Part shown: one piece after another, positions 5,041-47,134 of the stretch
Layout of the letters: each line of letters opens with the position of its first letter
Position numbering within the stretch: the stretch's first letter is position 1
Assembly: GCA_014376805.1 (NCBI GenBank)
Contig: JACMQU010000036.1
Coordinates: forward strand, 1-64,000
Length of the DNA stretch: 64,000 bases
Direction of reading: 5' to 3'
From: Bacteroidia bacterium
GTDB lineage: Bacteria; Bacteroidota; Bacteroidia; UKL13-3
Made by a program: the position numbers and the translations under genes
Notes under the pieces: model-generated
Told to the model about the DNA's origin: nothing
The model's database searches: none
The model's input: only the letters and a program-made list of their open reading frames with translations

Positions 5041-6383
5041 GAAGCGCCGATGAAGATTTTGATGATGGCATCAGGCAAAAAGTCAATGCTATCAACAATG
5101 AGTTTGATGAGGCTTATTGGTTAAAAGCGAAGAGTCTTATTAAAGCCGACAGGCAGTTTAAAGCAAATATTATGGTCTTCACTTTTGTTCTGTTTGCTTT
5201 GTTAATGGCCATTGCAGTAATGGGTTTCTTTATGCAAAATTATCAGCAAAAATTAAAGGCAACATCAACCGATTTAAGCCAGGCAGATATCAATAGACCT
5301 GTACAAACCCAAACAGTACCTGGCCAACAGAATGGGTTGTGGGTATTTAAATCTGAACCCTTGTTTGCAGTTAACGCAGGTTCTGTTTTTCCGGCAGGAA
5401 CTCAAATATTTATGCAAACTTTGCAACTGATGCATGAAACCGGGGTAGAAACGACCTGGCAGCAAACAATACATAAAGATGAATTTATAATTGAACCGGC
5501 ATTGCACATGAAAACAACTACAAATAAAACATTGCTAAAGCAGCCCTTTAAACCCTTAAACAGGGAGAACGAGCGCAAAATAACTATACATAAAAGCAAA
5601 GTTGAAAATGAATACATTGACGAAATACAGGCTTCAAACATATATGATGTTACGATGCTCCGGGTGCAGGAAAAGGATCCTGTAACCGTTGAGAATAAAA
5701 TGTGGAACGGGGCTATTTTAGCAACAACTTTATGGGATACCAGCAACCTAATAAAGAAAAATTTTCATAAGCATTTTGATAAAAAACCGAAAGCGTTTTA
5801 CTTAACAGCAGAAGCCTGTTTAACAAATTTTAACGGATCTCCATTAAAAGAAAACACTATAAGTTATGGCATAGGCATAAAGTGTTTTTATTTCTATTCC
5901 AAAAATTTCGGACTGAGTGCAGGTATTGAATACAGAAGGCTACACGAGCAATTGGGTGATCGAAAATATGTACAACTCAGCTATAATTTTGGCTCAAACC
6001 AGCAAATTAAAATATTAACAACGCAAAGGCTTGACTATATACAAATTCCGGTTTGGTTGGTGTATCGTTTAAACAATAAAAACCAGGTAAATGCAGGTAT
6101 TAATCTATTAGCAGTAATACAAACTACAGATATGGTTCAAACCATGCAAACCGGCGATGTTAATTTAAACAATGTTAAATACGAACATGGCTACTTTAAT
6201 GCAATAGCAGCAACCGACCTACAACTTAGTGTTGGTTATTCTTATGCCGCTACAGGTAGGCTTTATTTTCATGCAACTTTATATAAGGGGCTTATTGATA
6301 TAACTAATAACAAAGTATTTAAGTCGGCCAGTGCTGATTATAACAAAGGCTTTACAGTTGGTATAGGCTATAAATTTAATTAA
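5037..6383 (+). CDS. Anti-sigma-like inner-membrane segment fused to an outer-membrane beta-barrel-like domain
   Basis: The 448-residue protein starts with about 43 acidic/basic cytoplasmic residues, then one hydrophobic span at about 44-66, a long polar linker (67-250), and a C-terminal barrel-like domain (about 255-448). The barrel has alternating strands such as SYGIGIKCFYFYSKNFGLSA and ends FTVGIGYKFN, as in PF13568 proteins. Its position directly after an ECF sigma gene, with an ATGA overlap, suggests that the N-terminus holds the sigma factor. One polypeptide with both an inner-membrane helix and an outer-membrane-type barrel is unusual: it would have to span the periplasm, or the barrel-like part would have to fold in the periplasm. 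It could instead be a plain barrel protein with a signal anchor. Confidence 0.65.
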   Translation: MRSADEDFDDGIRQKVNAINNEFDEAYWLKAKSLIKADRQFKANIMVFTFVLFALLMAIAVMGFFMQNYQQKLKATSTDLSQADINRPVQTQTVPGQQNGLWVFKSEPLFAVNAGSVFPAGTQIFMQTLQLMHETGVETTWQQTIHKDEFIIEPALHMKTTTNKTLLKQPFKPLNRENERKITIHKSKVENEYIDEIQASNIYDVTMLRVQEKDPVTVENKMWNGAILATTLWDTSNLIKKNFHKHFDKKPKAFYLTAEACLTNFNGSPLKENTISYGIGIKCFYFYSKNFGLSAGIEYRRLHEQLGDRKYVQLSYNFGSNQQIKILTTQRLDYIQIPVWLVYRLNNKNQVNAGINLLAVIQTTDMVQTMQTGDVNLNNVKYEHGYFNAIAATDLQLSVGYSYAATGRLYFHATLYKGLIDITNNKVFKSASADYNKGFTVGIGYKFN

Positions 6384-6385
6384 AA

Positions 6386-7495
6386 ATGAAAGCATCTAAT
6401 TATGTCATTTTACTATTTATACTACTCGGTCTTTCATGCAAAAGAAAGGCTGAACCTTTTGATGAAACATCGGGCCCGGTATTTTATGCCAAAGGCTTTG
6501 CCGGCAATGAAGCCATCAACATTGAAGCAGGTGTAAACAGTTACTATCTTGAAACCGATCATGCCATTGATGCCAACCGAATACATGAGTTTACCGGTAA
6601 TTTTAAACAAACCTGCCCAAAATGCAAGCACTCTTTAAAGGTTAGAATAAGGGATTATCATCAGGCAAATGGATCAGGTTTTTTTGCTGACTCGAGTTTA
6701 GTGAATAAGGATTATGACTATAAGTTGAATGGCTTTTCCAATATTCCGTTTTATACCATTAAACTAACTGCAATACCCGAGGGTGAATCGGGCCTGAAAT
6801 CTCACCTGTGGGAGTTTTCAGACGGCTCTACATCAACCAAAAACACGTTAATTAAAACCTTTTTAAGTAGCACAGATCAACAAATAAAATACACTTGCAA
6901 TTATACCAATACCTGCTCATCAACCCTAAGTTATCATGTTAGGTTAAATCCATTTTTGAACCCCGTGGATTTACCCGATTTTAAAGCTGAAAAAATTGAC
7001 AGTGCTCAAATCATTTATCAGCTTACGGCAGTAGGTGATGCTAAAAATACTTATCTGTGGAATATGGGCAATGGGCAACGATTAAAAGGAAAATCGGTTT
7101 TTTATGGTTTTGATAGCAGTGGTGTTTTTACAGTAAGTCTGACCCGGATTAGCGAAAACGATACCGGCGAAGTAAGCAAAAACATTAGTGTTGGAAATGT
7201 TCCTGATTGTAAAGCAAATTTTATTAAAGAGCTTATACCTTTTGAAGACCCATTAAACCTATCTACAGTGGATGTTGAATGGACGAATGAAGCCGGCGAA
7301 TTATTTACAAGTGCAGGAGTTAAACAAAGTTTTTATAACCAATTTAAAGTACTCGAGTCATTGGGTCATAAAACAAATGCAGGCGGCCAACCTACAACAC
7401 TTATAAAGTTGCTTATCAACTGTAAGGTTTCTAACGGATCAAGAATTATTGAATTAAAAAACGTGGAAGCTAAAATGGCAGTAGCACATCCTTAA
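6386..7495 (+). CDS. PKD-domain lipoprotein in the sigma/anti-sigma operon
   Basis: The protein has 369 residues and a lipoprotein signal (lipobox LGLSC, Cys18), so it is predicted to be lipid-anchored in the outer or inner membrane. Two PKD-like domains are visible: HLWEFSDGSTSTKN at about residues 140-155, and YLWNMGNGQRLKG at about 225. The gene begins 3 bases after the barrel gene, so the three genes form one operon. It could act as the sensing or binding arm of the pathway, or as a partner of the PKD adhesin upstream. No catalytic motif was recognised. Confidence 0.7.
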   Translation: MKASNYVILLFILLGLSCKRKAEPFDETSGPVFYAKGFAGNEAINIEAGVNSYYLETDHAIDANRIHEFTGNFKQTCPKCKHSLKVRIRDYHQANGSGFFADSSLVNKDYDYKLNGFSNIPFYTIKLTAIPEGESGLKSHLWEFSDGSTSTKNTLIKTFLSSTDQQIKYTCNYTNTCSSTLSYHVRLNPFLNPVDLPDFKAEKIDSAQIIYQLTAVGDAKNTYLWNMGNGQRLKGKSVFYGFDSSGVFTVSLTRISENDTGEVSKNISVGNVPDCKANFIKELIPFEDPLNLSTVDVEWTNEAGELFTSAGVKQSFYNQFKVLESLGHKTNAGGQPTTLIKLLINCKVSNGSRIIELKNVEAKMAVAHP

Positions 7496-7497
7496 AC

Positions 7498-7914
7498 TTA
7501 TACTTTTTTTTCGCTTTCATTTATAGGTAAATCATTAATACTGGCAAAGCGTTTTTGCATATAACCATCTTCATTAAACTCCCACATTTCGTTGCCATAA
7601 GAGCGGTACCATTGCCCTTGTACATCATGCCACTCATATTCAAAACGAACGCCAATTTTATTATCGGTAAAGCACCACAATTCTTTTTTTAATTTATAAT
7701 CCAGTTCTTTTTCCCATTTAGCTATAAGGAATTTTTTCACCTCTGCACGGCCATTAATAAACTCATGTCTGTTGCGCCATTCTGTATCTATTGTATAAGC
7801 CATACTTACTTTATCGGGGTCTTTAGTGTTCCAGGCATTTTCGGCAAATTGAACTTTTTGTGTAGCCGTTTCTAACGTAAATGGTGGCAAGGGCAATCTT
7901 TTTTCTTCGGGCAT
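7498..7914 (-). CDS. DUF1348 / NTF2-like (SnoaL-fold) protein
   Basis: This 138-residue cytoplasmic protein is rich in Trp and Tyr, with [26 protein letters not shown] and the [19 protein letters not shown] block typical of the DUF1348 group of the NTF2 superfamily. Length matches the family and there is no signal peptide. The family has no firmly established reaction; the NTF2 fold usually forms a cone with a small-molecule pocket. It is convergent with the PKD lipoprotein gene, with only 2 bases between the stops. Confidence 0.75.
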
Positions 7915-7980
7915 GGGATGCTTGTTTAAAGTAATTAATCATAACGGTGCCAAAAAACGCTTTGGTTCACCCTATCAAAA

Positions 7981-8514
7981 TTATATATATAAAAGCAATT
8001 GTTCTCTAATATAATTATAATTTTCTTCATCAAAACATACAAAAATAACTTTATCGAGATCTTTTGTTTGAGCAAGTACAGCGTGTACAACCTGCACTGC
8101 AATTTGTGCGGCAAGTTTTTTGGGAAACCTGTAAATGCCTGTGCTTATGTTTGGGAACGCAATTGATTTACATTGATTGTTAATGGCAAGCTGCATGGAG
8201 TTTTTATAGCAATTGGCAAGCCTTGTGGCTTCGTCATGCAAGCCATCATTCCATACAGGCCCAACGGTATGAATTATAAATTTGGCAGGCAGGTTACCGG
8301 CGGTTGTAATAACGGCATTACCTGTTTTACAGTTACCCTGCGCAGCAACAATTTTTTTGCAAGCTTCTAATATTGCTGGTCCGCCTGCCCTGTGTATGGC
8401 TCCATCAACACCACCGCCACCTAACAACGATGAGTTTGCTGCGTTAACAATTGCATCGGCATAAATTAAAGTGATGTCTCCTTTTACAAGATCTGTTTTA
8501 TTAAATTGGTTCAT
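7981..8514 (-). CDS. Macro-domain protein, O-acetyl-ADP-ribose deacetylase type
   Basis: This 177-residue single macro domain has the ADP-ribose-binding motifs [34 protein letters not shown] and [12 protein letters not shown]. These match the MacroD/YmdB class, which removes acetyl from O-acetyl-ADP-ribose and can remove ADP-ribose from proteins. The catalytic-loop Asn (NAANSS) and Asp (GVDGAIH) are present. It is a stand-alone gene. The upstream intergenic region carries two copies of a 64-bp repeat. Confidence 0.88.
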
Positions 8515-8775
8515 AATATAACCATTTTTTTTTATGTTAAATCGTATACAAATTATGTATGTGTTATAACATATTTAGTTACTGTTCACCCAAAAATATA
8601 GAATATTCACCAAGTTAGGTTAACAAAAAGTGTATTTATTTTTTAATTAAAATGTGAACTGATCTTTGATGTAATGATTGTGGTACCGTAAGGTTACATA
8701 TTAATTAAAGAGATAGATTATTTCAAACTAAAAGAAGATCACGAAAAACTTCTTCAACTCGTTGCTATTTTAATG

Positions 8776-8839
8776 ACTTGCTGCGTAAAAGTTTTGGGGA
8801 GCTCTTATGGGTTATAAAGACTTCTGCACTAACGTGGTT
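8776..8839 (+). repeat. 64-bp direct repeat, copy 1
   Basis: The copy begins ACTTGCTGCGTAAAAG and ends CACTAACGTGGTT. It shares TAAAAGTTTTGGGGAGCTC, TATGGGTTA and CGTGGTT with copy 2, 145 bases downstream. Its end forms a small CAC-taac-GTG hairpin followed by seven T, like a weak terminator on the plus strand. Confidence 0.75.
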
Positions 8840-8920
8840 TTTTTGCATGGGGGGAGCATCATATTTCATTCAATATTTGTGCGATACGCGGTGTTAAAAA
8901 TTCGGATTCTAATATACTTC

Positions 8921-8984
8921 ACTTGCGGCGTAAAAGTTTTGGGGAGCTCCTATGGGTTACTAAGATGTCACCACTAGCGTGGTT
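8921..8984 (+). repeat. 64-bp direct repeat, copy 2
   Basis: The copy begins ACTTGCGGCGTAAAAG and ends CACTAGCGTGGTT, the same length as copy 1. It keeps the terminal hairpin (ACCAC-tagc-GTGGT, 8970-8983). The differences keep the hairpin paired, which suggests that structure is selected. Confidence 0.75.
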
Positions 8985-9027
8985 GATTTATATCTGATGC
9001 CCCGTTTAAAGTTAGCAACAAAATTAA

Positions 9028-9453
9028 TTAATGGTATTCATTAGAGGCAATACAAATTTGCCAGTATTCAACTATACTTTTAATTACGGTTTCGAGTTCT
9101 TTATAACTACTGGGTTTGATAAAGAAGCCTTGCACTGGCATTGTATAAGCATCATCAACAGTTTTAGAACTTGCAGCAGTAGTAAACACTAAAAAGGGAA
9201 TGTTTTTGTTTTTTAACTTTTGTGTATTTTGAATTTCTGCTCTTAATTCAAAGCCACTTATTTTGGGCATGTTTACATCAGAAAAAATCAAAAAAGGATT
9301 TGTTTCATTTGCATTTAAATATTCTATAGCTTCGAACCCATCGTTAAAAAAAAGCAAACTGTTTTTAATCTTCAGATCATTAAAAATATCTGTGAGTATT
9401 TTTTGATCATCTTTATCGTCATCAATAATTATAATTGGCCCTGATTTATTCAT
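9028..9453 (-). CDS. Single-domain response regulator (CheY/Rcp1-like receiver)
   Basis: The 141-residue protein is one receiver domain without an output domain. The acidic pocket is Asp11-Asp13, the phospho-acceptor is Asp59 (FSDVNMPK), the switch Thr is Thr91/92 (VFTTAASS) and the conserved Lys is Lys113 (FIKPSS). It would be phosphorylated by a histidine kinase and act through protein contacts. No kinase gene is adjacent; the nearest is the GAF kinase at 55.6-56.8 kb, and a link between them is only a guess. The rhomboid gene on the same strand ends 48 bases upstream of its start. Confidence 0.9.
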   Translation of the reverse strand: MNKSGPIIIIDDDKDDQKILTDIFNDLKIKNSLLFFNDGFEAIEYLNANETNPFLIFSDVNMPKISGFELRAEIQNTQKLKNKNIPFLVFTTAASSKTVDDAYTMPVQGFFIKPSSYKELETVIKSIVEYWQICIASNEYH

Positions 9454-9501
9454 AGTTTTAATTTATTGCTTTATAGGTAATTTTTAGTGGTTATAAGAGT
9501 A

Positions 9502-10362
9502 TTATTGTTTGGATAGTTTTTCAAGTTTTTCTCTTTCTTTTTGTGTTAAACTATTAAAACCATTTTCATTAATCTGATCTAATATTTCATCTAATTCAAT
9601 CTCTTTTTTTCTTTGGTTTGTATGCTGCTTTTCATCTGGTATTTCAAATGGCCCTACTTTTAAAAAAACTTGATAGGGTGTTTCCAGCAATAGAAATGCG
9701 GGTCTTTTAATAAGTAGGTACAAAAAGATAAATGTGGGAGTTAAAATTAAGACTACCGGGAAATAATTGCCTGCTATTTTATAAGGGAACATTAGGGTAA
9801 TTGCGAGCAAGCCAATTATACCGCCGCCCAAATGTGCCTCATGGCCAATATTGTACTTTTGCGATTGTATGCCATAGATGGAATATAAGACATACAATAT
9901 GCCATAAGCCCATGCAGCCATATAATAAGGAAAACCGAAAATACTTAGTTGTAAGCCGGGCGAAAATGCAATTGATGCGAATATTATTCCGGTGATAGCT
10001 GCTGAAGAACCCGTAGAGCGGTAATCGTAATGGTTTCTGTGTATATAAAGTGCAAATAAATTACCTCCTGCTAAACTTGCAAAATAAAGTAATAGAAAAT
10101 TTGATTTCCCTATAGATAGTTCAAGCGAATAACTGAAACAAAAAAACGAAATCATATTAAATAAAAGATGAACCCAGCTTATATGCAAAAACCCCGAGGT
10201 GATAATTCTTTTATAGTTTTTATTTAATAAGATTTCATCAACTTGAAAGGAATACTTTTCAAAAAAAAGAGGACTTCTCAAACCAAGGTATGTTACCGAT
10301 AGGTTTGCTATTAAAATAAGAATGCCTGTAATGCTGATCTGTTCCATTTTTTTTCGGATCAA
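9502..10362 (-). CDS. Rhomboid-family intramembrane serine protease
   Basis: This 286-residue protein has about six membrane helices. The catalytic pair appears as Ser120 in TGSSAAITG and His177 in GHEAHLGG, and the HLLFNM helix motif (65-70) is present. The usual Gly after the catalytic Ser is Ala, a mild deviation. The C-terminal cytoplasmic tail (ELDEILDQINENGFNSL then TQKEREKLEKL) is a DUF6576-type helical tail shared with the rhomboid at 17070-17942. The start could also be Met6, 15 bases downstream, since MEQISITG reads well as an N-terminus. The substrate is unknown. Confidence 0.88.
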   Translation of the reverse strand: MIRKKMEQISITGILILIANLSVTYLGLRSPLFFEKYSFQVDEILLNKNYKRIITSGFLHISWVHLLFNMISFFCFSYSLELSIGKSNFLLLYFASLAGGNLFALYIHRNHYDYRSTGSSAAITGIIFASIAFSPGLQLSIFGFPYYMAAWAYGILYVLYSIYGIQSQKYNIGHEAHLGGGIIGLLAITLMFPYKIAGNYFPVVLILTPTFIFLYLLIKRPAFLLLETPYQVFLKVGPFEIPDEKQHTNQRKKEIELDEILDQINENGFNSLTQKEREKLEKLSKQ

Positions 10363-10518
10363 TCATAAAATGTGCCTTCTCAAAAATAATATATATTAAC
10401 ATTAAAAGATACTTAACTGTGAATTTTGGAAGTTAAATAGTTCTTTTTAAAACATAAGAAGTACAGGGCAATTAAAGCTTAGTGCAGAAAAGAGGTGCTT
10501 GGGCAAAAATTTGGCAAT

Positions 10519-10553
10519 AAAAAAGCCATTCAACTTTAGTCGAACGGCTTTTT
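10519..10553 (-). terminator. Intrinsic terminator of the RRM gene
   Basis: The arms AAAAAGCC (10519-10526) and GGCTTTTT (10546-10553) enclose ATTCAACTTTAGTCGAAC, which pairs further. Reading leftwards the stem is followed by T-rich sequence. It lies just after the RRM gene stop and may work in both directions. Confidence 0.8.
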
Positions 10554-10575
10554 AATGGGTTTAAGTTTCTTAATA

Positions 10576-10887
10576 TTAATAAGATCTTCTGTTGTTGTCG
10601 CTTCCCCTGTCGTTGTAAGACCTTCTTTCACGGTTAGGTCTTTCTTCGCGTGGACGAGCTTCGTTAACGGTAATGTTTCTGTCTTTAAAAGACTGACCGT
10701 TTAGAGAGTTAATTGCACTTTGTGCACTTGCATTGTCTGGCATTTCAACAAAGCCAAAACCTTTGCTACGGCCAGTGAACTTGTCATTTACGATGTTAAT
10801 AGATGTAACTTCGCCAAATTGAGAAAACAGTGAGCGCAACTCATCATCAGTTGCGGTCCAGTTTAGGTTTCCGATGTAAATATTCAT
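10576..10887 (-). CDS. RRM-type RNA-binding protein
   Basis: The 103-residue protein has one RNA-recognition motif with RNP2 IYIGNL (3-8) and RNP1 KGFGFVEM (42-49), then an Arg/Asn/Ser-rich tail (EERPNRERRSYNDRG). It would bind single-stranded RNA through the aromatic RNP residues. Such small RRM proteins are common in Bacteroidota and cyanobacteria and are often highly expressed or cold-regulated; that is family knowledge, not visible here. It has its own near-consensus promoter and a strong terminator, so it is monocistronic. Confidence 0.93.
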   Translation of the reverse strand: MNIYIGNLNWTATDDELRSLFSQFGEVTSINIVNDKFTGRSKGFGFVEMPDNASAQSAINSLNGQSFKDRNITVNEARPREERPNRERRSYNDRGSDNNRRSY

Positions 10888-34943: not shown

Positions 34944-35783
34944 TTATTCTATGCAAATCTTTTTAAATTGTACATCATCACCTAATTCAATCTTAAGCAA
35001 GTATATGCCTTTTAAATTGTAATTTCCGATGTTAAAAGTAGGGGTATTTGCTCCTTTGGTTAATATTTGATTACTTAATATCTGTATATCTTTTCCATTT
35101 AAATCAATTATAGAAAACACCGCTTTGGTGTCTTCTTTAACGGCAAGCTGCACCTGTAAAGTTTCAGTAGCCGGATTTGGATATATGTTAAAAGAGTTTA
35201 GGCTTTTAGGTTCAAACAGGCTCGTTGTACCTGATGAAGGAAAGTTAAGATTTGTGGTATATACAAAATCACCGCCGTCTCCACCTGTGCCATTTGCGGC
35301 CATTCCCGAAGCATAAAACGTAACCGTTCCTGCATTGGTAACCGGTGCTACCCAGTTAAACTTAAAAACTTTGCTGTCTGTATTACCTAATGTACCGTTG
35401 CTGGTATGGGTCATATATGAATTACCGGAGCCTAATCTTACATTTGTATTTCCGTTTGTTGCAAGGGTTCCTGCAGCAATGCCACCGGTTTTTTTAGCTG
35501 ATAATGCAAAACCAAACCTGCTTCTGCCGGTAAATGCCACTGTAACATTTACCTCATAAGTTTGCCCGGGCGTATAACTGGCAGGATTACCGGTAATAGT
35601 TATAGCAACACTACCTCCATTTACAGGATTAACTGGGGTGCCTGAGTGGCAACTGGTACAGTTGCTTTCTCCCGGGGCACTCGTATATCCGGCGTTTGGT
35701 CCGGTTGAATAAGAGGCAACCTGCGTTATATTAAAAATAGCAACAAGTGCAAATACGGATACTAAAGTTAATTTTTTATTCAT
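34944..35783 (-). CDS. Choice-of-anchor V / Reeler-like domain protein with CxxCH motif and T9SS sorting domain
   Basis: I chose the ATG at 35783 (MNKKLTLVSVFALVAIFNI), which gives a signal peptide; the longer frame to 35852 does not. The mature start has GESNCTSCHSGTP, a CxxCH that could bind one c-type heme. A beta-sandwich of about 130 residues like reelin/choice-of-anchor V follows, and a type A T9SS tail (NIYPNPATETLQV, then YLLKIELGD). It is exported to the cell surface. A candidate -7 box (TACTTTTG) sits at 35850-35857 on this strand. The role is unknown; redox or heme binding is a guess from the motif. Confidence 0.85.
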   Translation of the reverse strand: MNKKLTLVSVFALVAIFNITQVASYSTGPNAGYTSAPGESNCTSCHSGTPVNPVNGGSVAITITGNPASYTPGQTYEVNVTVAFTGRSRFGFALSAKKTGGIAAGTLATNGNTNVRLGSGNSYMTHTSNGTLGNTDSKVFKFNWVAPVTNAGTVTFYASGMAANGTGGDGGDFVYTTNLNFPSSGTTSLFEPKSLNSFNIYPNPATETLQVQLAVKEDTKAVFSIIDLNGKDIQILSNQILTKGANTPTFNIGNYNLKGIYLLKIELGDDVQFKKICIE

Positions 35784-35858
35784 ACAGGTTTTTTTGTACT
35801 TAGGATTATTAACAGCAAATAAAGGCTGCTTTCGTAAATTTAAAACGAACAAAAGTAT

Positions 35859-37716: not shown

Positions 37717-38481
37717 TTAAGGGCGATTCATTAAAGGAGGAAAATATTTTCCTGTGTGAATTTTAATAAAAATACCAAGAGAGTATAATTCTTTATTGTA
37801 ATTAATACTTCCATTGCTTAATTTAATGCAATATAGATACTGAAACTGAATCTTTACATTTCTTATTCCGGCCCTTAAAGTAATTGCGGGCTCAATAAAA
37901 CTGTAGTTTAAATTTAACTCATCAAAATGGTCATCATATAGGCGTTCAACCGGCCAGTTTTTCGTTTTTATATTAAGATAACTAATGTTAGAATACCTAA
38001 GACCGGCCGAAATTTCAAAAAGACGTAATTTATACCCAATGGCAGGTTGAATAAACATTTTGAGTCCATTGGCTGTTAAACTTCGTTGTTGAACAGCAAA
38101 TCCGTTCATGGGATCGCTGTAATTTTTAAATTGAGACATGTGTCCGTAACCTATGCCGCCGTATGTTTCAAAAATGATTTCTGGTTTAGGATATATTTTT
38201 CTGAAATATCCGGCCCCAATTTCTCCCAGAAACCCTTTGCCTCCATTTCCAACCCGGTCAATTGGCGCATCTTGTTGTTCAAAGTAACCATTGGCCATTA
38301 CCCCAATATGATCAGTTACAGAATAAGCGGCCTGAAAATTTGTTGTTGTTGCAGCTATTGCTATTTCTTTTTTAGCAGAGAAAAGAGGCGTATTCAGCAT
38401 TGTGGATCTATAGGCCACATTGCAGGAAGAAATGGCACATATACAAATAGCAATTTTGGTTATAAGTGTTTTCATACGCAT
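37717..38481 (-). CDS. Uncharacterised lipoprotein-like beta-barrel protein
   Basis: The 254-residue protein has a possible lipobox (CAISSC, Cys20). Alternating aromatic/small strands follow (GEIGAGYFRKIYPKP, FETYGGIGYGH, FEISAGLRYSNISYL) and a final strand LYSLGIFIKIHTG, suggesting an 8- to 12-stranded outer-membrane barrel. A lipidated barrel would be odd, so the Cys may instead be part of an ordinary signal. No family was recognised. The start could be Met1 or Met3. Confidence 0.55.
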   Translation of the reverse strand: MRMKTLITKIAICICAISSCNVAYRSTMLNTPLFSAKKEIAIAATTTNFQAAYSVTDHIGVMANGYFEQQDAPIDRVGNGGKGFLGEIGAGYFRKIYPKPEIIFETYGGIGYGHMSQFKNYSDPMNGFAVQQRSLTANGLKMFIQPAIGYKLRLFEISAGLRYSNISYLNIKTKNWPVERLYDDHFDELNLNYSFIEPAITLRAGIRNVKIQFQYLYCIKLSNGSINYNKELYSLGIFIKIHTGKYFPPLMNRP

Positions 38482-38796: not shown

Positions 38797-39330
38797 CTAT
38801 TTATAGTTGAAGCTAAAGGTACCGCCGGTAATATTTCTTTTAATCTGAAAACCTAAAGGATTTTTAAATACACCGGTAAAATTAAATTCTCCGCTCACCT
38901 GTTTATTGGTGAGATCGATTGATTTTATATTAATAACCCCATTAGGCTGAGCATCAAATTCCTTATCATTCGTATTCGTAAGGTTATCATCAAGCAGGTA
39001 AAATCCATAAAAGTCATCGCCGGCAAACATAGTGTCCACTGCTACTTCGCAAGGGAAAACAAAATCGAGATTGATGATATGAAATGTGGTGTCTTTCATA
39101 CTATGGCGAACATAATGATTTCCCTGAATGGAATAACCGCCCTGATCAATTTTAACAGCATAATCGTTGGGTGCCCATAAAATTGTATCAATATACGCAC
39201 TCATTTTTACATTATAAATTTGAGTGAAAGTCAATTGAAAATCGTCATCTGGTTCACCTGTTATTTTTTCAATTTTTGTGCAGGCAGATAGGCAATGTAT
39301 TGCCAAAATGAGATATAGTATCTTTTTCAT
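38797..39330 (-). CDS. Uncharacterised lipoprotein of the polysaccharide operon
   Basis: The 177-residue protein has a lipobox (CLSAC, Cys16), so it is lipidated. The remainder is a small beta-rich domain ending NITGGTFSFNYK, a pattern common to small Bacteroidota lipoproteins. Its start overlaps the synthase stop as ATGA, so it belongs to the same operon as the GH18-NodB-GT2 enzyme and may help export or bind the product. No specific family was recognised. Confidence 0.65.
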   Translation of the reverse strand: MKKILYLILAIHCLSACTKIEKITGEPDDDFQLTFTQIYNVKMSAYIDTILWAPNDYAVKIDQGGYSIQGNHYVRHSMKDTTFHIINLDFVFPCEVAVDTMFAGDDFYGFYLLDDNLTNTNDKEFDAQPNGVINIKSIDLTNKQVSGEFNFTGVFKNPLGFQIKRNITGGTFSFNYK

Positions 39331-42300
39331 GCTTTACTTTCCTTACCAATTATGCCTTTAACATTTCCGCTTCTTTTTAAAATTCCCCAATTAACCAGTT
39401 CTCCTTTTATTGCATTTAGCAATGATTTGATTAAAACAACAAAAAGCAATTGGCGGTATACAATGCGTTGCGGGATCATCAGTAATAAAATTTTCAGTCT
39501 GATTTTTTCTCCTTCATAAGCATAAGCCAAAACTGCAACTAACATCTCTATAACCATATACAAAAGATACAGAGCTAGTGTTACAGAAGTCTTACCAAAG
39601 ATCAGGGAAAAGATTAACATTAAATCTACCAAAGGATTAAAGAGCGGAAGAAAAATCTGAAATAAAATAATGTTCGGCAGTAGTATCCAACCTATGTTTT
39701 TATGTTTAAAACTAAACAATAGATTTTTATGTTTCCAAAAACTCTGCAGTATACCATAGCACCACCTGTACCGTTGTTTCATAAATGCGCCAACAGTTTC
39801 AGGTGCCTCGGTAAAGGCATAGGCATTGTTACATGTTTTTACTTTATAACCAGCGCTTAACAGGCGCATTGTCAAGTCGCAATCTTCAGCAAGTGTATCT
39901 AATTTAAAGGAACCTACTTCTTCAACATGCGTTTTTCTAAACATACCAATAGCACCTGGTATAACCATTATTGCATTCAGCAAATCAAAAGCGAGTCTGT
40001 CAAAATTCTGACTGGTAGTGTATTCAATGCTTTGCCAGCTTGTAAGGAGATTAATGGTGTTGCCCACTTTTACATTACCTGATAAACCCGCCAGTTGCGG
40101 ATCTTCAAAAAAAGGAAGCATTTTTTCAATAGCATCTATTGCAATCAGGGTGTCAGCATCAATACAAAATAAAAGTTCCCCATTACAAATTTTTATTCCA
40201 TAATTAATTGCTGAAGCTTTGCCACCATTAGGTTTAGTAAAAAGTTTCACGATAGAATGCTTATAAAAGTTCTCCGATACTTTTTTAAAAGTTTCATCTG
40301 TTGAACCATCATCGACAACAATTATTTCAAAATTTTTATAAGTGCTTTCCAGAAGTTGTGCTACCGTTTTCACAATATTAATTTCTTCATTATAAGCTGG
40401 AATAATGATGCTCACCAATTTGTTAATCCCATTTATTCCGACCGATTTTTTTAAGTTCATTTTTTTCTTGGTGGCCAGCATTGCAATAACTATAGCCCTG
40501 AATGCGGTAACGATTAAAGCAAAAAAAAACAAAGCAAATAAAAACTTTTGACCGAAATATATTAATGTGATAAGCACAATATTAAGTATACTTAACTTTT
40601 TATCATTGCCACTTGTAATAGGTGGCATCAATTCATCTTTAGGCTTACCAAGTAACCCTGCAATTGTGGTAAAAGTGTAACCGTTATTTTTATAATATTC
40701 AATAATAGCAGGCAGTGCTTTTATTGTCTGTTCTCTGTTTCCACCGGCATCATGCAATAGTATAATATTACCAAGTCCTTTTTGCGCTATTGCTCTTGCT
40801 ATAATTGTATCTGCACTAATTCCTTTTTCCCAGTCACGCGGATCAATAGAAGATCCAATGCTAATATAATTATCTGTTTTACCAATGGCGATAGGCTGCA
40901 ATTCCGAAAATTTTGTTGGCTCGGCATCTGTGTTATAGGGTGCTCTGAAAAGTATTGTAGAATGGTCTGTTATGGCTTCTATCATTCTGCGCGTTGTTCT
41001 TAATTCAATAAGGGTGCGTTCCTTACTTACCAGTTCAAGGTTTACGTGGGTGTATGTATGATTGCCAATTTCATAACCTTCATTATAAATTTGTTTTAAT
41101 CCCGGCACATCACTCTGTATATTAATTCCGGTTACAAAAAAGGAAGCCGGTACGTTATATTTTTTTAATATGGAAATGATTCTTGGGGTATAATCCGCAT
41201 CCGGACCATCATCAAAAGATAGTACGATCATTTTAGGTTTCTCACCCGCTTTCCTGATAACATAACCCGATGGAAGTTCAATATATTTTTCTTCAGAAAT
41301 AAGCTGGTCTATGCTATCATATTCAAAATGTATAACTCCTTTTGATGGCGATGTAACAACGTTAAGAATCTCTCCCGCACCTATATAATCAACGTTAACA
41401 GAGGCCGCAATTTCCTTTAGCTGCAGGGTAACAGGTGGTTTATTTTTGATAGAATCGATGCCAAGGTTCTTGTCATAAAAATTCCAGATGCGTTCGTCTT
41501 CAGAACCAAGCCGCCATAATGCACACCCCGCGGTGCCAAAATCCTCACCTGTACGCATGGCATTATACGCAGATGCCGCATCTGTAAAATAAACTTCGTG
41601 CTCCTTGTCTTCTTCGTCCCAATAGGTATAATTTAAATTGTAAGTATGATTGTTAAAATGTGGAATGGTATCGCTCTCCGAAGCTATAGCAACCGCTTCC
41701 TGGTAAGTAATATTTGCCCCTTCAAAACCTTTAACCCAATCATAACCGTAAGCCGAAATACACAATACAACTTTTTCTGCCGGTATAACTTTCAATGCCT
41801 GATCCAAACCATTTTCAATCCAGTTTTGAGCGGCAACCGCACCAGGATAACTGCTTTCGTTATGCTGATCATAAGCCATCAAAAAAATGAAGTCATTGTA
41901 TTTAATCAGCTCTTTATAGTTATAATCTTCATTAAAAGGAGAGACATCCTGAGTAACCATAAAACCGTTTTTGTGCAGGGTATTATAAAGGTCTTTCTGA
42001 AAAGAAATTATATACTCATCGGTGGTTTCATTAAGTTCCTCAAAATCTATGTTAACCCCATTAAACTTGTATTTTTTTAAATTGTAAATGATGCTCGCAA
42101 TAAACTTCTTTTTTCTTACTGGGTCATGAATAATGCGCGCCACATTTTTACCATTCCATTTTTGGTTAAAGTAATTGGATACCATAGGAACTATGTGTAC
42201 ATTATTTTTGCGCATTATAGCAAGTGCTTTTAAAGAGACATCGTTAAAATCAATAGCTATTTCATCGCTTGAGTCTGATACAAAAAACCATTCCGGTAAC

Positions 42301-42716
42301 ACTACATTCATTTTGCCAATGTGGTCTCTTAAGGATAAATAAGATTGGATATCCCAGTTAACAAAGAAGCCTGCCTTAATAGGCAGCAATGGTTTTAAAT
42401 GTGTATTGTGGCTTTTAAATAATGGCAGGTTTTGCCTCAAATAAAAGTCGGCATGATTTTGAGCTCTAATTTTGCTGATGTCTTTATTAAATTCATCATG
42501 TGTTGCTTTACTTATGGTATCTCTTTCCGTTATTTTTTTAAAGGTGCTTTCACCGATTTGCTTTGGCAGACTTAGTTTTTCTGATTTACTGATTGAATAG
42601 AAACCTAAGGCCGTTAACAAGATAAACAGCGCAATGGATGAGCCTATAATCAGCCTGAAACTGTGCCAGCGAAGGCGCGAATCTGACCGGAAGATCTGTT
42701 TATTTTCTATTTCCAT
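39327..42716 (-). CDS. Trifunctional GH18 + NodB polysaccharide deacetylase + GT2 polysaccharide synthase
   Basis: The 1129-residue membrane protein joins three enzymes. After a membrane span (about 22-42) comes a GH18 domain (about 110-420) with catalytic Asp224 and Glu226 in NGVNIDFE; the first two Asp of the DGxDxDxE motif are Asn, as in SleL/YaaH-type members. A NodB deacetylase domain (about 495-690) has the metal triad Asp503, His553 and His557 (FDDGPD, HTYTH) and LLHDAGG. After two spans (about 710-750) comes a processive GT2 domain (about 765-1000) with Asp802/803, DAD (853-855), EDCD (944-947) and QRYRW (981-985), then several C-terminal spans. By analogy with Pga and chitosan systems, it would polymerise and extrude a GlcNAc-type glycan and then deacetylate and trim it in the periplasm. 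The sugar is inferred. Confidence 0.9.
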   Translation of the reverse strand: MEIENKQIFRSDSRLRWHSFRLIIGSSIALFILLTALGFYSISKSEKLSLPKQIGESTFKKITERDTISKATHDEFNKDISKIRAQNHADFYLRQNLPLFKSHNTHLKPLLPIKAGFFVNWDIQSYLSLRDHIGKMNVVLPEWFFVSDSSDEIAIDFNDVSLKALAIMRKNNVHIVPMVSNYFNQKWNGKNVARIIHDPVRKKKFIASIIYNLKKYKFNGVNIDFEELNETTDEYIISFQKDLYNTLHKNGFMVTQDVSPFNEDYNYKELIKYNDFIFLMAYDQHNESSYPGAVAAQNWIENGLDQALKVIPAEKVVLCISAYGYDWVKGFEGANITYQEAVAIASESDTIPHFNNHTYNLNYTYWDEEDKEHEVYFTDAASAYNAMRTGEDFGTAGCALWRLGSEDERIWNFYDKNLGIDSIKNKPPVTLQLKEIAASVNVDYIGAGEILNVVTSPSKGVIHFEYDSIDQLISEEKYIELPSGYVIRKAGEKPKMIVLSFDDGPDADYTPRIISILKKYNVPASFFVTGINIQSDVPGLKQIYNEGYEIGNHTYTHVNLELVSKERTLIELRTTRRMIEAITDHSTILFRAPYNTDAEPTKFSELQPIAIGKTDNYISIGSSIDPRDWEKGISADTIIARAIAQKGLGNIILLHDAGGNREQTIKALPAIIEYYKNNGYTFTTIAGLLGKPKDELMPPITSGNDKKLSILNIVLITLIYFGQKFLFALFFFALIVTAFRAIVIAMLATKKKMNLKKSVGINGINKLVSIIIPAYNEEINIVKTVAQLLESTYKNFEIIVVDDGSTDETFKKVSENFYKHSIVKLFTKPNGGKASAINYGIKICNGELLFCIDADTLIAIDAIEKMLPFFEDPQLAGLSGNVKVGNTINLLTSWQSIEYTTSQNFDRLAFDLLNAIMVIPGAIGMFRKTHVEEVGSFKLDTLAEDCDLTMRLLSAGYKVKTCNNAYAFTEAPETVGAFMKQRYRWCYGILQSFWKHKNLLFSFKHKNIGWILLPNIILFQIFLPLFNPLVDLMLIFSLIFGKTSVTLALYLLYMVIEMLVAVLAYAYEGEKIRLKILLLMIPQRIVYRQLLFVVLIKSLLNAIKGELVNWGILKRSGNVKGIIGKESKA

Positions 42717-43635
42717 TGTTTTGTATTGCGAAATATAAATTATACAGAATGTTTAAAGAGAAATAACTGTAGCCTCCAATTAGATACGGACTTAAAAGAG
42801 GGTCTTCATAGCGCAGTGCAATCGGATAATTATAATGATAAAGTGGAGTGATTACAAAATTTTTGAACTCAATATTCAGTCCCAGCATGGCTTCATAATT
42901 TACAATATCAGGACTTTGCAAAACATGTTTGGTTTTATAATCGCGGTATGGAATATTATTTACAATATACCTTGTTGTATCGCCATATCCCACGCTTTTG
43001 TCCCCGGCATATCCTTCCACAAGAAGCGCCGGCTTTATATTCCAGTAGAAGTTTTTGCCGGTACCGGGAAGGTCTATGGTGTAATCGATCTGAGCCTGTA
43101 TAAGCAACGCGTTTTCTTTGCCCCACAAATAATAAACACCCAGTTCGCCATTTAGCTTTTCGTAGTTTGTTGACAGCGCTGCCTGTATCATATTTTTAAA
43201 ACTCAAACCAACAAAAAAGGAATCTTTAGCAAGAAACCATCTTTCATACGAAACATTTAAATTTAAATGTGGAGTGAGATCTTTTTCAATACCAATACCT
43301 AAATCGGTTTTAGCGAATGGGGTGTTTATGCCACTCCATTTATAATTATTTAAGTTAACATAAATTCCAACAGGTGTTTTGTATACCAACGAAGTATTAA
43401 AACCATATTGTTTCAACCCAAAATCCCTTCCCCTGTATACAACTTTGCTCACATAAGCAGCTTCAAATGAAATTAAATGACTGTTTTTATGCGCCATATT
43501 TATACTGTCTTGTTGCAGCTGGTCAAGGCTATCCTGAATGATGTCGGCCCTTTGTTGCATGGTTGTTCCAGGTTCATTTTGAGCGAATGATAAACAATAC
43601 CAGAAAACAAAAACGCTAAACAATATTGCCCGCAT
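42700..43635 (-). CDS. Outer-membrane barrel protein of the polysaccharide operon
   Basis: The 311-residue protein has a signal peptide (ending CLSFAQ). After a short coil-like polar stretch (residues 25-50) come beta-hairpin strands typical of outer-membrane barrels (SFEAAYVSKVVYRGRDFGL, LNLNVSYERWFLAKDSFFVG) to a final strand SLNILYNLYFA. It overlaps the synthase start by 17 bases and is the first gene of the operon. It could be the outer-membrane exit for the polymer, taking the role of PgaA, but it lacks the TPR region of PgaA and no family name is secure. Confidence 0.7.
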   Translation of the reverse strand: MRAILFSVFVFWYCLSFAQNEPGTTMQQRADIIQDSLDQLQQDSINMAHKNSHLISFEAAYVSKVVYRGRDFGLKQYGFNTSLVYKTPVGIYVNLNNYKWSGINTPFAKTDLGIGIEKDLTPHLNLNVSYERWFLAKDSFFVGLSFKNMIQAALSTNYEKLNGELGVYYLWGKENALLIQAQIDYTIDLPGTGKNFYWNIKPALLVEGYAGDKSVGYGDTTRYIVNNIPYRDYKTKHVLQSPDIVNYEAMLGLNIEFKNFVITPLYHYNYPIALRYEDPLLSPYLIGGYSYFSLNILYNLYFAIQNNGNRK

Positions 43636-43877: not shown

Positions 43878-45062
43878 ATGGCAACAATAAAATGGGGCAA
43901 TGAAGAAGTAGAAATATTTGAAATAGAACAACTGGAAGAAGTAGATTCTTAAATTGGCATAGAAAACATTGTCAGTCCTTTTAATCCTTAAGACATCAAG
44001 ATTATTGTTGAGCCGAAAACTATTGACCATTTAATTTCTAGACTTCGCCATGATGAGATTGATTTGAATACAGAATTTCAAAGAAAGGGTAACCTTTGGA
44101 ATTTTGAAAAACAAAGTCGCTTAATTGAATCAATTTTACTTAGATTACCATTACCAGCTTTTTATTTTGATGCCTCAAATGATAATAAATGGCTTGTTGT
44201 AGAAGGTCTTCAAAGGTTATGGAGTTTGAAAAATTTTATCGTCAATGTTGAATTAGTAGAATCAAAAAAGCCCGAAGATAAATCTATCGAATTAAGTGGT
44301 TTAGAGATTTTAACTGAATTAAACAACAAGGGAATTACCTATAATAAGTTAAACAGGACAATGTAAAGAAGAATTTTAGAAACCCCTATAACTACTTATT
44401 TAATTCAACCTGAAACTCCAAAGAATGTAAAGTATAATGTTTTTAAAAGAATTAATTCCGGTGGATTAGGTTTGAACGCTATGGAAATAAGAAATGCACT
44501 TAACCAAGAAAGAATTTCTGAAAACAAAACAAGTCCTGCAGTTTTTATGAAGGAGATGTCTGAAAGCCCAAAATTGAAAGCCATTTTAAAATTGCTGGAT
44601 AAAAGAATGGAAGACCGTGAGTTGTTATTAAGAGCTTATTCTTTTATTGAAAAGGATTTTTCTGAATGTGAGAAACCTTTATCTAGTTTCCTAGATAAGA
44701 CAATAGAAACATTATCTGTTAAAACGAATAATGAACTTGAAAGGATCTCAACTGGGATTATTGAAGCTGTTTATTTTCAACAGGAATTATTCGGTAAACA
44801 TATGTTTAGTCGTTCCATTAATGGAAGCAGTATTAAATTGAACAGTGCATTATTTGAAGTTTGGATTTCCGAAACTTATAAGCTGACCAGAGTTCAAAAG
44901 GAAAAATTGATTATAAATAAAGGAGAACTTACAGAGAAATACAAAGCGATGTTTAGAGAGGATGATTTTTATAAATCTATTGTATCATCAACATCAGGAA
45001 AAGGATCTGTCATGACAAGGTTTAATAAAATTAAATCCTTAATAAATACATATTCAAAATGA
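43878..45062 (+). pseudogene. DUF262-domain protein gene with three in-frame TAA codons
   Basis: A single frame runs from the ATG at 43878 to the TGA at 45060-45062, broken only by TAA at 43950-43952, 43989-43991 and 44364-44366. Its protein has a DUF262/ParB-nuclease-like start, with TEFQRKGNLWNFEKQSRLIE and VVEGLQRLWSLKNF. The family's D-G-Q/L-Q-R active motif here reads EGLQR. A C-terminal helical part follows the KRINSGG motif. DUF262 proteins include GmrSD-type restriction nucleases. The ATPase gene begins in an ATGA overlap, so these were coupled genes. With three stops it is probably dead; misassembly or readthrough are less likely, since TAA ends many intact genes here. Confidence 0.85.
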
Positions 45063-46172
45063 TTACTAGGATTAGAATAAGGAATTTTAAAGCGTTCAGA
45101 GAGGCCGAAATAAATTTGTCCTCGCTAAATTTATTAACAGGCATGAATGGCATGGGTAAGTCAACTTTTATACAATCGTTGCTTTTACTTCGTCAATCTG
45201 ATGCTAACTTGATCCCCGAAATAAGAGGTTTACTATTAAAAGGAGAGATGATTGATATAGGGAAAGGTAAAGATGCCCATAGTATTAATGCCGATAGCGA
45301 TATTATAAGTTTTGAAGTGGATTACGAATATAAACCGGTTGTAAATGTATCGTACAATTTTGTTGCGGAAAGTGATGTACTCCCCTATGATAGCGCAAAT
45401 GAAAAAAATTTAATAAGCGGAGGGCACTTTTCTTTATTTAATAGCAATTTCAAATATATAAAGGCAGAACGAATAGCTCCAGACCATAATTATAAAGCAA
45501 ATCTTGCAGCTGTTCAACAAAATGGTTTTTTAGGATATAGAGGAGAGAACACTCCTTTATTTATTGCACTTAAGGAAGAGACCCAGTTGGTTCGAAAAGT
45601 GTAATTCATCCGAAAGCTGTTTCTGATGAAATTATTTCAAATGTAGATGCATGGCTTAATGAAATTACTCCGGGAACACATATCATATCAAGATATTTCG
45701 GAGAGTTAGATATTGTAAAAATGGGTTATCAATTTGATTATGGAAAAGATGTAACTCCTGAATTTAGTCCAGTCAATGTAGGGTTTGGTTTTACTTATAC
45801 CTTACCCGTAATTTCTGCAATTCTCTCAGCAAAAAAGGAGATTTAATAATAATTGAAAACCCCGAATCACACTTGCATCCGCAAGGTCAGGCTAAATTAG
45901 GGGAGTTAATTGCAAGAGCAGCCAGTGGGGGTGTACAATTAATAATTGAATCACATTCTGACCATTTGTTTAATGGAATTCGCGTTGCTATAAAAAATGG
46001 CTTTGTGAAATCAGATGATGTTTCCGTTTTCTATTTTGTGAGAGATGAAAATTCTAATGAGCATATTACAACTATTGAACAACCTATAATTGAATCAAAT
46101 GGCAGACTTAGTCACAAGCCAAAAGGCTTTTTTGATGAATATTCAAAGCAATTAGATGAACTCATAAAATAA
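45059..46172 (+). pseudogene. AAA-family ATPase (DUF3696) gene with two frameshifts
   Basis: The first frame (45059-45604) has Walker A GMNGMGKSTF after IRNFKAFREAEINLSSLNLL. It shifts near 45590 into a frame reading VIHPKAVSDEIISNVDAWL to about 45830. It shifts again after AKKGDLIIIENPESHLHPQ (Walker B region) and ends with ESHSDHLFNGIR and GFFDEYSKQLDELI, the DUF3696 tail. Joined, it is a complete SMC/OLD-like ATPase. Such ATPases pair with DUF262 nucleases in defence loci (family knowledge). The second shift sits at an A/G run, a normal place for indels. Confidence 0.85.
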
Positions 46173-46178
46173 TTAGAA

Positions 46179-47134
46179 ATGGTTTACATGTTTAATGAGT
46201 TATCTCTCTCACAAGTAGATTCAATATCTGATGTCAGAAAGGTTTTAGAAACATTTGTAAAATCATACATACGAGCAAAGGAATTTGGATTAACTGAAAT
46301 TCGAATTCACGAAAGGGTTAAGGATTTGTATCAATTTAAATTGCACGATAATTACAGAATTGATACTTGGTTGAAAGATAATGAAGTTAATTACGATTTA
46401 AAAGATAGATTTAGGGAGATTGTTGCTAATCCACCTTTAATTAGGGAAGATGAAATAATGGAAAGGAGTTATATGAACGCTCCGAATTTTATAAAATTAT
46501 TGATGAAACAAAAAACGCTGTTTTTGGTTTGGGTGCAGCACACATTTATGGCACATTGGCCCTAAGTTTGGGAACATATAATGAGTGGTTAAAATCTTCA
46601 ATTTCAATTCAACATTACTCATTAAATTATCAAGGAAATGAGAATATTCTTGATGTTAATGTATTTAACTTTTCATCGAAGGAAATTCATTCTGAATGGA
46701 TTAAAAATGAGCAAAAGCAAAACCTTGAAAAAAGCATTGACCTTTGGAATAAAAGGGAAGAGTATTTTCCAAACATCTTATTTGGAACTGATTTAGAAAA
46801 TCAACTTAAAAAAATAGGATTGACAAAAAAATTTTCTAAAATTATTGAATGTTTAAAAAGATTGGATGCGTATGCTAAAATTTGGAATGAGGGTGGGTTT
46901 AATTTGAATAAACTCAAAAATCAGTCCTTAATGGACATTAGTGGGGAATCGGAAAGCACCATGAAACAATACGCTGCATTGAGAATGTTCAGTTTATCTA
47001 ATGGTCAAAAAGTTCAATTTGAATTGCACATTAAAATACCTGATGTTAGAATTTATTTTGTCGCAAATGAAACATTACATAAAATAACTGTAGGATACAT
47101 TGGTATGCATATTAGAACTTCTTTGTATAATTGA
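46179..47134 (+). pseudogene. Unknown third protein of the cassette, one frameshift
   Basis: Frame one (46179-46565) gives ELSLSQVDSISDVRKVLETF and IRIHERVKDLYQFKLHDNYR. It must shift near 46460-46475 to the frame reading YERSEFYKIIDETKNAVFGL, which runs to 47134. Joined, the protein has about 318 residues. Its C-terminal part (FELHIKIPDVRIYFV, then KITVGYIGMHIRTS) has the look of a small RelE/ParE-like or similar domain, but I cannot name the family. It begins 6 bases after the ATPase stop, so it was part of the same operon. Confidence 0.65.

Follow-up and report, generated by a model that had tools for sequence, protein, structure and literature searches.

Closest described systems

The PgaABCD system of E. 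coli unites in a single operon the functions of GlcNAc polymerase, deacetylase, hydrolase and outer-membrane barrel, which lie on separate proteins: PgaA is a porin with a periplasmic TPR domain, PgaB carries a deacetylase followed by a hydrolase, PgaC makes the beta-1,6 linkage, and PgaD is a small membrane subunit. In processive GT2 synthases, the GT2 domain is established to be cytosolic. Proteins that combine GH18, CE4 and GT2 modules on one chain are also already known, and we take this architecture to be the one recorded in CDD as cd06549 (GH18_trifunctional). They are a common and little-studied kind: no paper on a GH18-CE4-GT2 three-module protein was found in our literature search, and the main text of PMC6902481, a lead obtained via cd06549, holds no usable passage.

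Fusions of a glycosyltransferase to a deacetylase have been described. In Streptomyces, MatB carries a cytosolic GT2 domain, nearest to PgaC, and an extracellular CE4 domain, nearest to PgdA, joined on one chain by a transmembrane helix, and PNAG formation depends on it (PMC5972031); MatA, the partner of MatB, is without known domains. In Gram-negative bacteria, Bundalovic-Torma et al. (2020) reported operons with GT-PgaB fusions and without detectable pgaA or pgaD, and suggested that other export routes may exist (PMC7112194).

A cassette of three overlapping genes

The DNA analysed here, referred to as the window, is a 64,000-nucleotide stretch of contig JACMQU010000036.1 from a Bacteroidia bacterium (GCA_014376805.1). 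Its minus strand carries three consecutive open reading frames, all with an ATG start: a barrel gene, first in the cassette, encoding 311 aa with an N-terminal signal sequence (42700..43635), a synthase gene encoding a GH18-NodB-GT2 protein of 1129 aa (39327..42716) and a lipoprotein gene encoding 177 aa with an LSAC lipobox (38797..39330). The barrel stop and the synthase start overlap by 17 nt (42700..42716), and the synthase stop and the lipoprotein start by 4 nt (39327..39330), so that the ORF coordinates agree exactly with the overlaps given by the first-pass annotation of this DNA.

Another small barrel-like protein without a family is encoded 315 bases downstream of it (37717-38481, minus strand). 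On the other side, at 43900-47134 (plus strand), fragments of GmrSD_N (DUF262), AAA_15 and DUF3696 lie in separate short frames and look like a broken cassette, perhaps the remains of a defence system. Two proteins of the window (1448-4291, plus strand; 34947-35852, minus strand) carry type IX secretion C-terminal sorting domains; one of them has many PKD repeats, the other a Reeler-like domain.

When the three-gene set was searched for in other Bacteroidota, the full trio was recovered in one other genome only, at locus L016, in a distant lineage. The L016 trio (6187-10803) aligns to window positions 43539-38914 with 70% DNA identity and nothing aligns beyond either end, which leaves the barrel-like gene at 37717-38481 outside the homology. 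In L016, the barrel frame runs to 7014 plus its stop, the synthase extends from 7001 to the 10390 region and the lipoprotein starts at 10390, so that both overlaps are equally long as in the window. For each gene, codon identity between the two loci is 45-49% at third positions and 79-86% at second positions, and barrel, synthase and lipoprotein are thus alike under purifying selection. Since L016 repeats the overlaps of 17 and 4 bases and each gene is under purifying selection, the arrangement is not due to chance. That two distant lineages have preserved the trio intact is the best evidence for joint action of its genes. The earlier proposal of an operon centred on a trifunctional enzyme therefore stands in that the trio behaves as a unit, but most synthases of this type sit in unrelated surroundings, without barrel or lipoprotein neighbours; co-occurrence of the three is real and the exception.

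The window and L016 synthases are 72% identical, whereas the window synthase is 46-47% identical to that of G021, a member of the same family as the window genome. By rpoB, the window genome is 78-79% identical to Hufsiella, to G021 and to the genome of locus L054 and 71% identical to that of L016; outside its own genus its nearest relatives are G021, Hufsiella and Pedobacter, and the L016 genome is nearest to Chitinophaga (75%). In the synthase tree, the window joins L016 and then Bacteroidales, apart from Sphingobacteriaceae (Pedobacter, Hufsiella). As the synthase tree conflicts with the rpoB comparison, the trio appears to have passed horizontally as a unit between distant bacteria. The GC content shows no sign of transfer.

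One enzyme with three modules

The analysis of the synthase confirmed what was first annotated, namely that modules for polymerisation, deacetylation and hydrolysis are joined in a single protein; their catalytic residues are kept. Three Pfam families pass their cut-offs: GH18 (PF00704, 1e-18, residues 161-404), Polysacc_deac_1/NodB (PF01522, 4.8e-29, residues 492-595) and Glycos_transf_2 (PF00535, 2.5e-33, residues 769-933). Taking Pfam, NCBIfam, PDB sequence matches and catalytic residues together, the modules span about residues 110-420 (GH18), 490-690 (CE4/NodB) and 765-1000 (GT2). The catalytic residues are D224 and E226 in GH18, D502, D503, H553, H557, R591 and H655 in CE4, and D853, D855, E944, D945, Q981, R984 and W985 in GT2. 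Conservation was read from an alignment of 105 full-length synthase relatives, in which the CE4 metal and base residues and the DxD, ED and QxxRW residues of GT2 are invariant (105/105). In the GH18 module, the acid E is kept in 102/105 and the preceding D in 104/105, and N stands in 105/105 where the usual GH18 motif has its second D.

Hydropathy places an N-terminal transmembrane helix at residues 22-40 (42597..42653, minus strand), a transmembrane stretch between the CE4 and GT2 modules at residues 718-744 (40485..40565, minus strand) and several C-terminal transmembrane segments after the GT2 module. Since the GT2 domain is cytosolic in such synthases and the stretch 718-744 separates it from CE4, the GH18 and CE4 modules would face the periplasm, with GT2 on the cytosolic side.

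With regard to the product, the best family model for the GT2 module is clearly PgaC_IcaA, at 173 bits against a cut-off of 422, followed by NodC (92) and CelA (73) among NCBIfam models. Over 241 aa, the module is 30% identical to E. coli PgaC (E 7e-34). The other two modules point in another direction: the closest solved structures of CE4 are deacetylases that act on peptidoglycan GlcNAc, and the nearest solved relatives of GH18 include 5jh8, a probable chitinase, and two spore enzymes, YdhD and YaaH. The usual target of GH18 enzymes is the beta-1,4 GlcNAc link, whereas PgaC, the nearest synthase family, makes beta-1,6 linkages, which counts against the cassette model preferred below. Instead of a PNAG-like beta-1,6 polymer, the enzyme could conceivably make a beta-1,4 chain of the chitin or chitosan type, or a glycan related to peptidoglycan, with GH18 setting its length. 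We judge this reading somewhat improbable; it can be combined with the preferred cassette model, and the lower-scoring NodC match agrees with it. Against it stand the difference between 173 and 92 bits and the case of MatB, which has a GT2/CE4 profile like this one and makes PNAG (PMC5972031).

The cassette resembles the Pga operon in bringing polymerase, deacetylase, hydrolase and barrel together, but it differs in placing the three enzymatic functions on one chain. It also differs in its parts: the 311-aa barrel has no significant similarity to PgaA, the modules follow the order GH18 then CE4 instead of deacetylase then hydrolase, GH18 gives no significant match to PgaB and CE4 is only marginally similar to it, and no PgaD-like protein is found in the cassette, the homology with L016 also ending at the trio. 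As it departs from Pga in PgaA, in the order and hydrolase of PgaB and in PgaD, we do not file it there; it is not a Pga operon, though it probably works along similar lines. With MatB it shares GT2 and CE4 on one chain with a transmembrane stretch between them, the sidedness in the window being predicted; no GH18 module is described in MatB, and its host is Gram-positive and so has no outer-membrane barrel. The fusion of a deacetylase to a glycosyltransferase is likewise shared with the GT-PgaB clades, which carry an N-terminal GT and no glycosyl hydrolase domain, whereas the window has a GH18 module, a C-terminal GT2 and a neighbouring barrel. By analogy, the cassette would fit the export gap of these GT-deacetylase fusions, adding a GH18 module and a candidate exit.

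The barrel and the lipoprotein

No Pfam or NCBIfam match was found for the barrel, in agreement with the earlier statement that it belongs to no known family. Its predicted model (pLDDT 52) is rich in beta strands, and its Foldseek matches are the barrels of OmpG, PcoB, an autotransporter and FapF, with PgaA (4y25) at rank 30. The model supports a generic outer-membrane beta barrel as the product of 42700..43635 and that much only.

Neighbours of the synthase were compared across 82 loci, among them L016-L095, the best 80 of 297 related stretches, all Bacteroidota by title; 51 of these 80 named loci have long flanks on both sides. Direct and profile searches of the frames recovered barrel homologs in L016, L027, L014 and L054, and in these four loci as in the window barrel and synthase directly adjoin each other on one strand, the barrel lying upstream in the window, L016 and L027 and downstream in L014 and L054. 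Apart from L016, these loci belong to the culturable Pseudarcicella hirudinis (L027) and to two related MAGs. The barrel-linked synthases occupy three separated places in the FastTree tree, with 3 changes forced by the starred branches and L027 as a long branch. The occurrence of two gene orders speaks for several separate joinings of barrel and synthase rather than one gain and several losses, and adjacency in both orders at three separate places makes the link look functional. No such barrel lies beside the synthase in 78/82 loci, some of them on short contigs, so the enzyme does not generally require one.

The barrel family is also found in other settings. A profile search detected members in 18/392 genomes, and homologs often adjoin sigma-factor genes or pairs of response regulator and kinase, with no synthase beside them. 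At L146, L148, L150, L154, L155 and L157, they lie directly beside a response regulator and a histidine kinase, with no linked synthase; the two-component neighbours suggest an envelope-stress setting. With neighbours of these kinds, the family reaches beyond polymer export, and the exit-pore role is one that we infer. The co-occurrence of barrel and synthase among 391 genomes (6 shared, hypergeometric P 0.00017) was set aside as functional evidence, because five of the six genomes belong to one genus and their barrels lie away from the synthase, mostly by two-component genes.

For the lipoprotein, the earlier statement held only roughly: it matches DUF6252 at 25 bits, below the Pfam cut-off of 27.2, and, over its full length, NF052634 (Riean_0653) at 35.6 bits, below the NCBIfam cut-off of 57. 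Direct and profile searches of the 82 loci, and all the genomes searched, gave a homolog in L016 alone, and a model built from these two sequences is unusable (pLDDT 39). The suggestion that it acts as an accessory is consistent with the trio being kept together in L016, but, coming from one pair of loci, is weaker than first presented; a role for the lipoprotein in the cassette is barely supported.

These observations bear on a simpler explanation, namely that the synthase works alone, its polymer staying at the inner membrane or in the periplasm or leaving by a general route, while barrel and lipoprotein are unrelated envelope proteins sharing the transcript. The 78 loci without a linked barrel, the other settings of the barrel family and the linkage of the lipoprotein in two loci only would all be expected from it. 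However, two distant lineages have kept the trio together, with purifying selection on its genes, and synthases with an adjoining barrel turn up at three places of the tree and in both orders; we consider this explanation rather unlikely.

Distribution of the synthase and its MprF neighbours

A scan of named genomes gave the 297 confirmed related stretches. In the Bacteroidota genomes sampled, the synthase is present in 24/392, the window's own genome counted. None of 18 other species of the window's genus carries a copy, and within the window's family it occurs in one of 18 other genomes, G021. Long matches in plasmid records, at 32-42% identity, come from Prevotella, Sphingobium, Sphingomonas, Novosphingobium, Sulfitobacter and Deinococcus, and the plasmid match tally taken irrespective of coverage also includes Streptomyces and Natrinema. 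Outside Bacteroidota, the long matches are thus on plasmids of Alphaproteobacteria and Deinococcus.

Neighbour clustering gave mostly lineage-specific sets, plus MprF, and the idea that the synthase family as a whole has a conserved neighbourhood was rejected. In Flavobacterium (L040, L043, L047, L070, L076), a separate lipoprotein of roughly 260 aa lies near the synthase; in L040, the one tested, it carries a polysaccharide-deacetylase domain. MprF, the lysyl-phosphatidylglycerol synthase, is encoded near the synthase in L022, L040, L043, L045, L046, L060, L069, L076 and L085, and also in L183 and L186. In Sphingobium, the synthase, VirJ, MprF, a response regulator and a kinase form a single run.

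The MprF neighbourhood suggests a surface-charge role for the synthase family. Its main purpose, in this cassette too, could then be to protect the cell from acid or cationic antimicrobial peptides by a positive surface, in the manner of lysyl-phosphatidylglycerol; this reading could again be combined with the preferred cassette model. MprF near synthase relatives in 9/82 Bacteroidota loci, with VirJ/AcvB in three of the nine, and similar neighbourhoods in Sphingobium and Sphingomonas agree with such a purpose. However, no LPG_synthase_C match is found in the genome of the window or of L016, and 9/82 is a raw count that includes four related Flavobacterium; we regard this purpose as improbable.

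A candidate export cassette

The explanation we prefer, to which we give roughly even chances, is that the trio is a horizontally transferred surface-polysaccharide cassette in which one enzyme makes, deacetylates and trims a GlcNAc polymer and the barrel is its exit. From the sequence comparisons we infer the topology of the synthase, its substrate and the barrel as exit. On the cytoplasmic side, GT2 would polymerise N-acetylglucosamine from UDP-GlcNAc and push the chain through the synthase's own membrane segment. On the periplasmic side, CE4 would deacetylate the chain as it emerges and so make it positively charged, and GH18 would cut or edit it. The co-encoded outer-membrane barrel would let the polymer out, and the lipoprotein may assist as a small accessory in the periplasm or at the outer membrane. 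No TPR domain is recognised in the barrel, and the confidence of its predicted model is too low for an estimate of pore size. More tentatively, the trio may form a mobile export system of Gram-negative bacteria that is minimal and complete in itself: one inner-membrane enzyme would do the polymerising, deacetylating and trimming, and a short TPR-less barrel, joined several times to such enzymes, would replace PgaA.

The enzyme itself is of a common kind, and most cd06549-type proteins share its three modules without the barrel and lipoprotein neighbours; what is new in this cassette is the linked barrel, in a rare linked set. We found no description in the literature of how the product of a trifunctional synthase passes the outer membrane in Bacteroidota. 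A barrel that lies repeatedly beside the synthase, and appears to have moved with it once as part of the trio, is a concrete candidate for this exit. If this is true, three genes would do the job that needs four in Pga systems.
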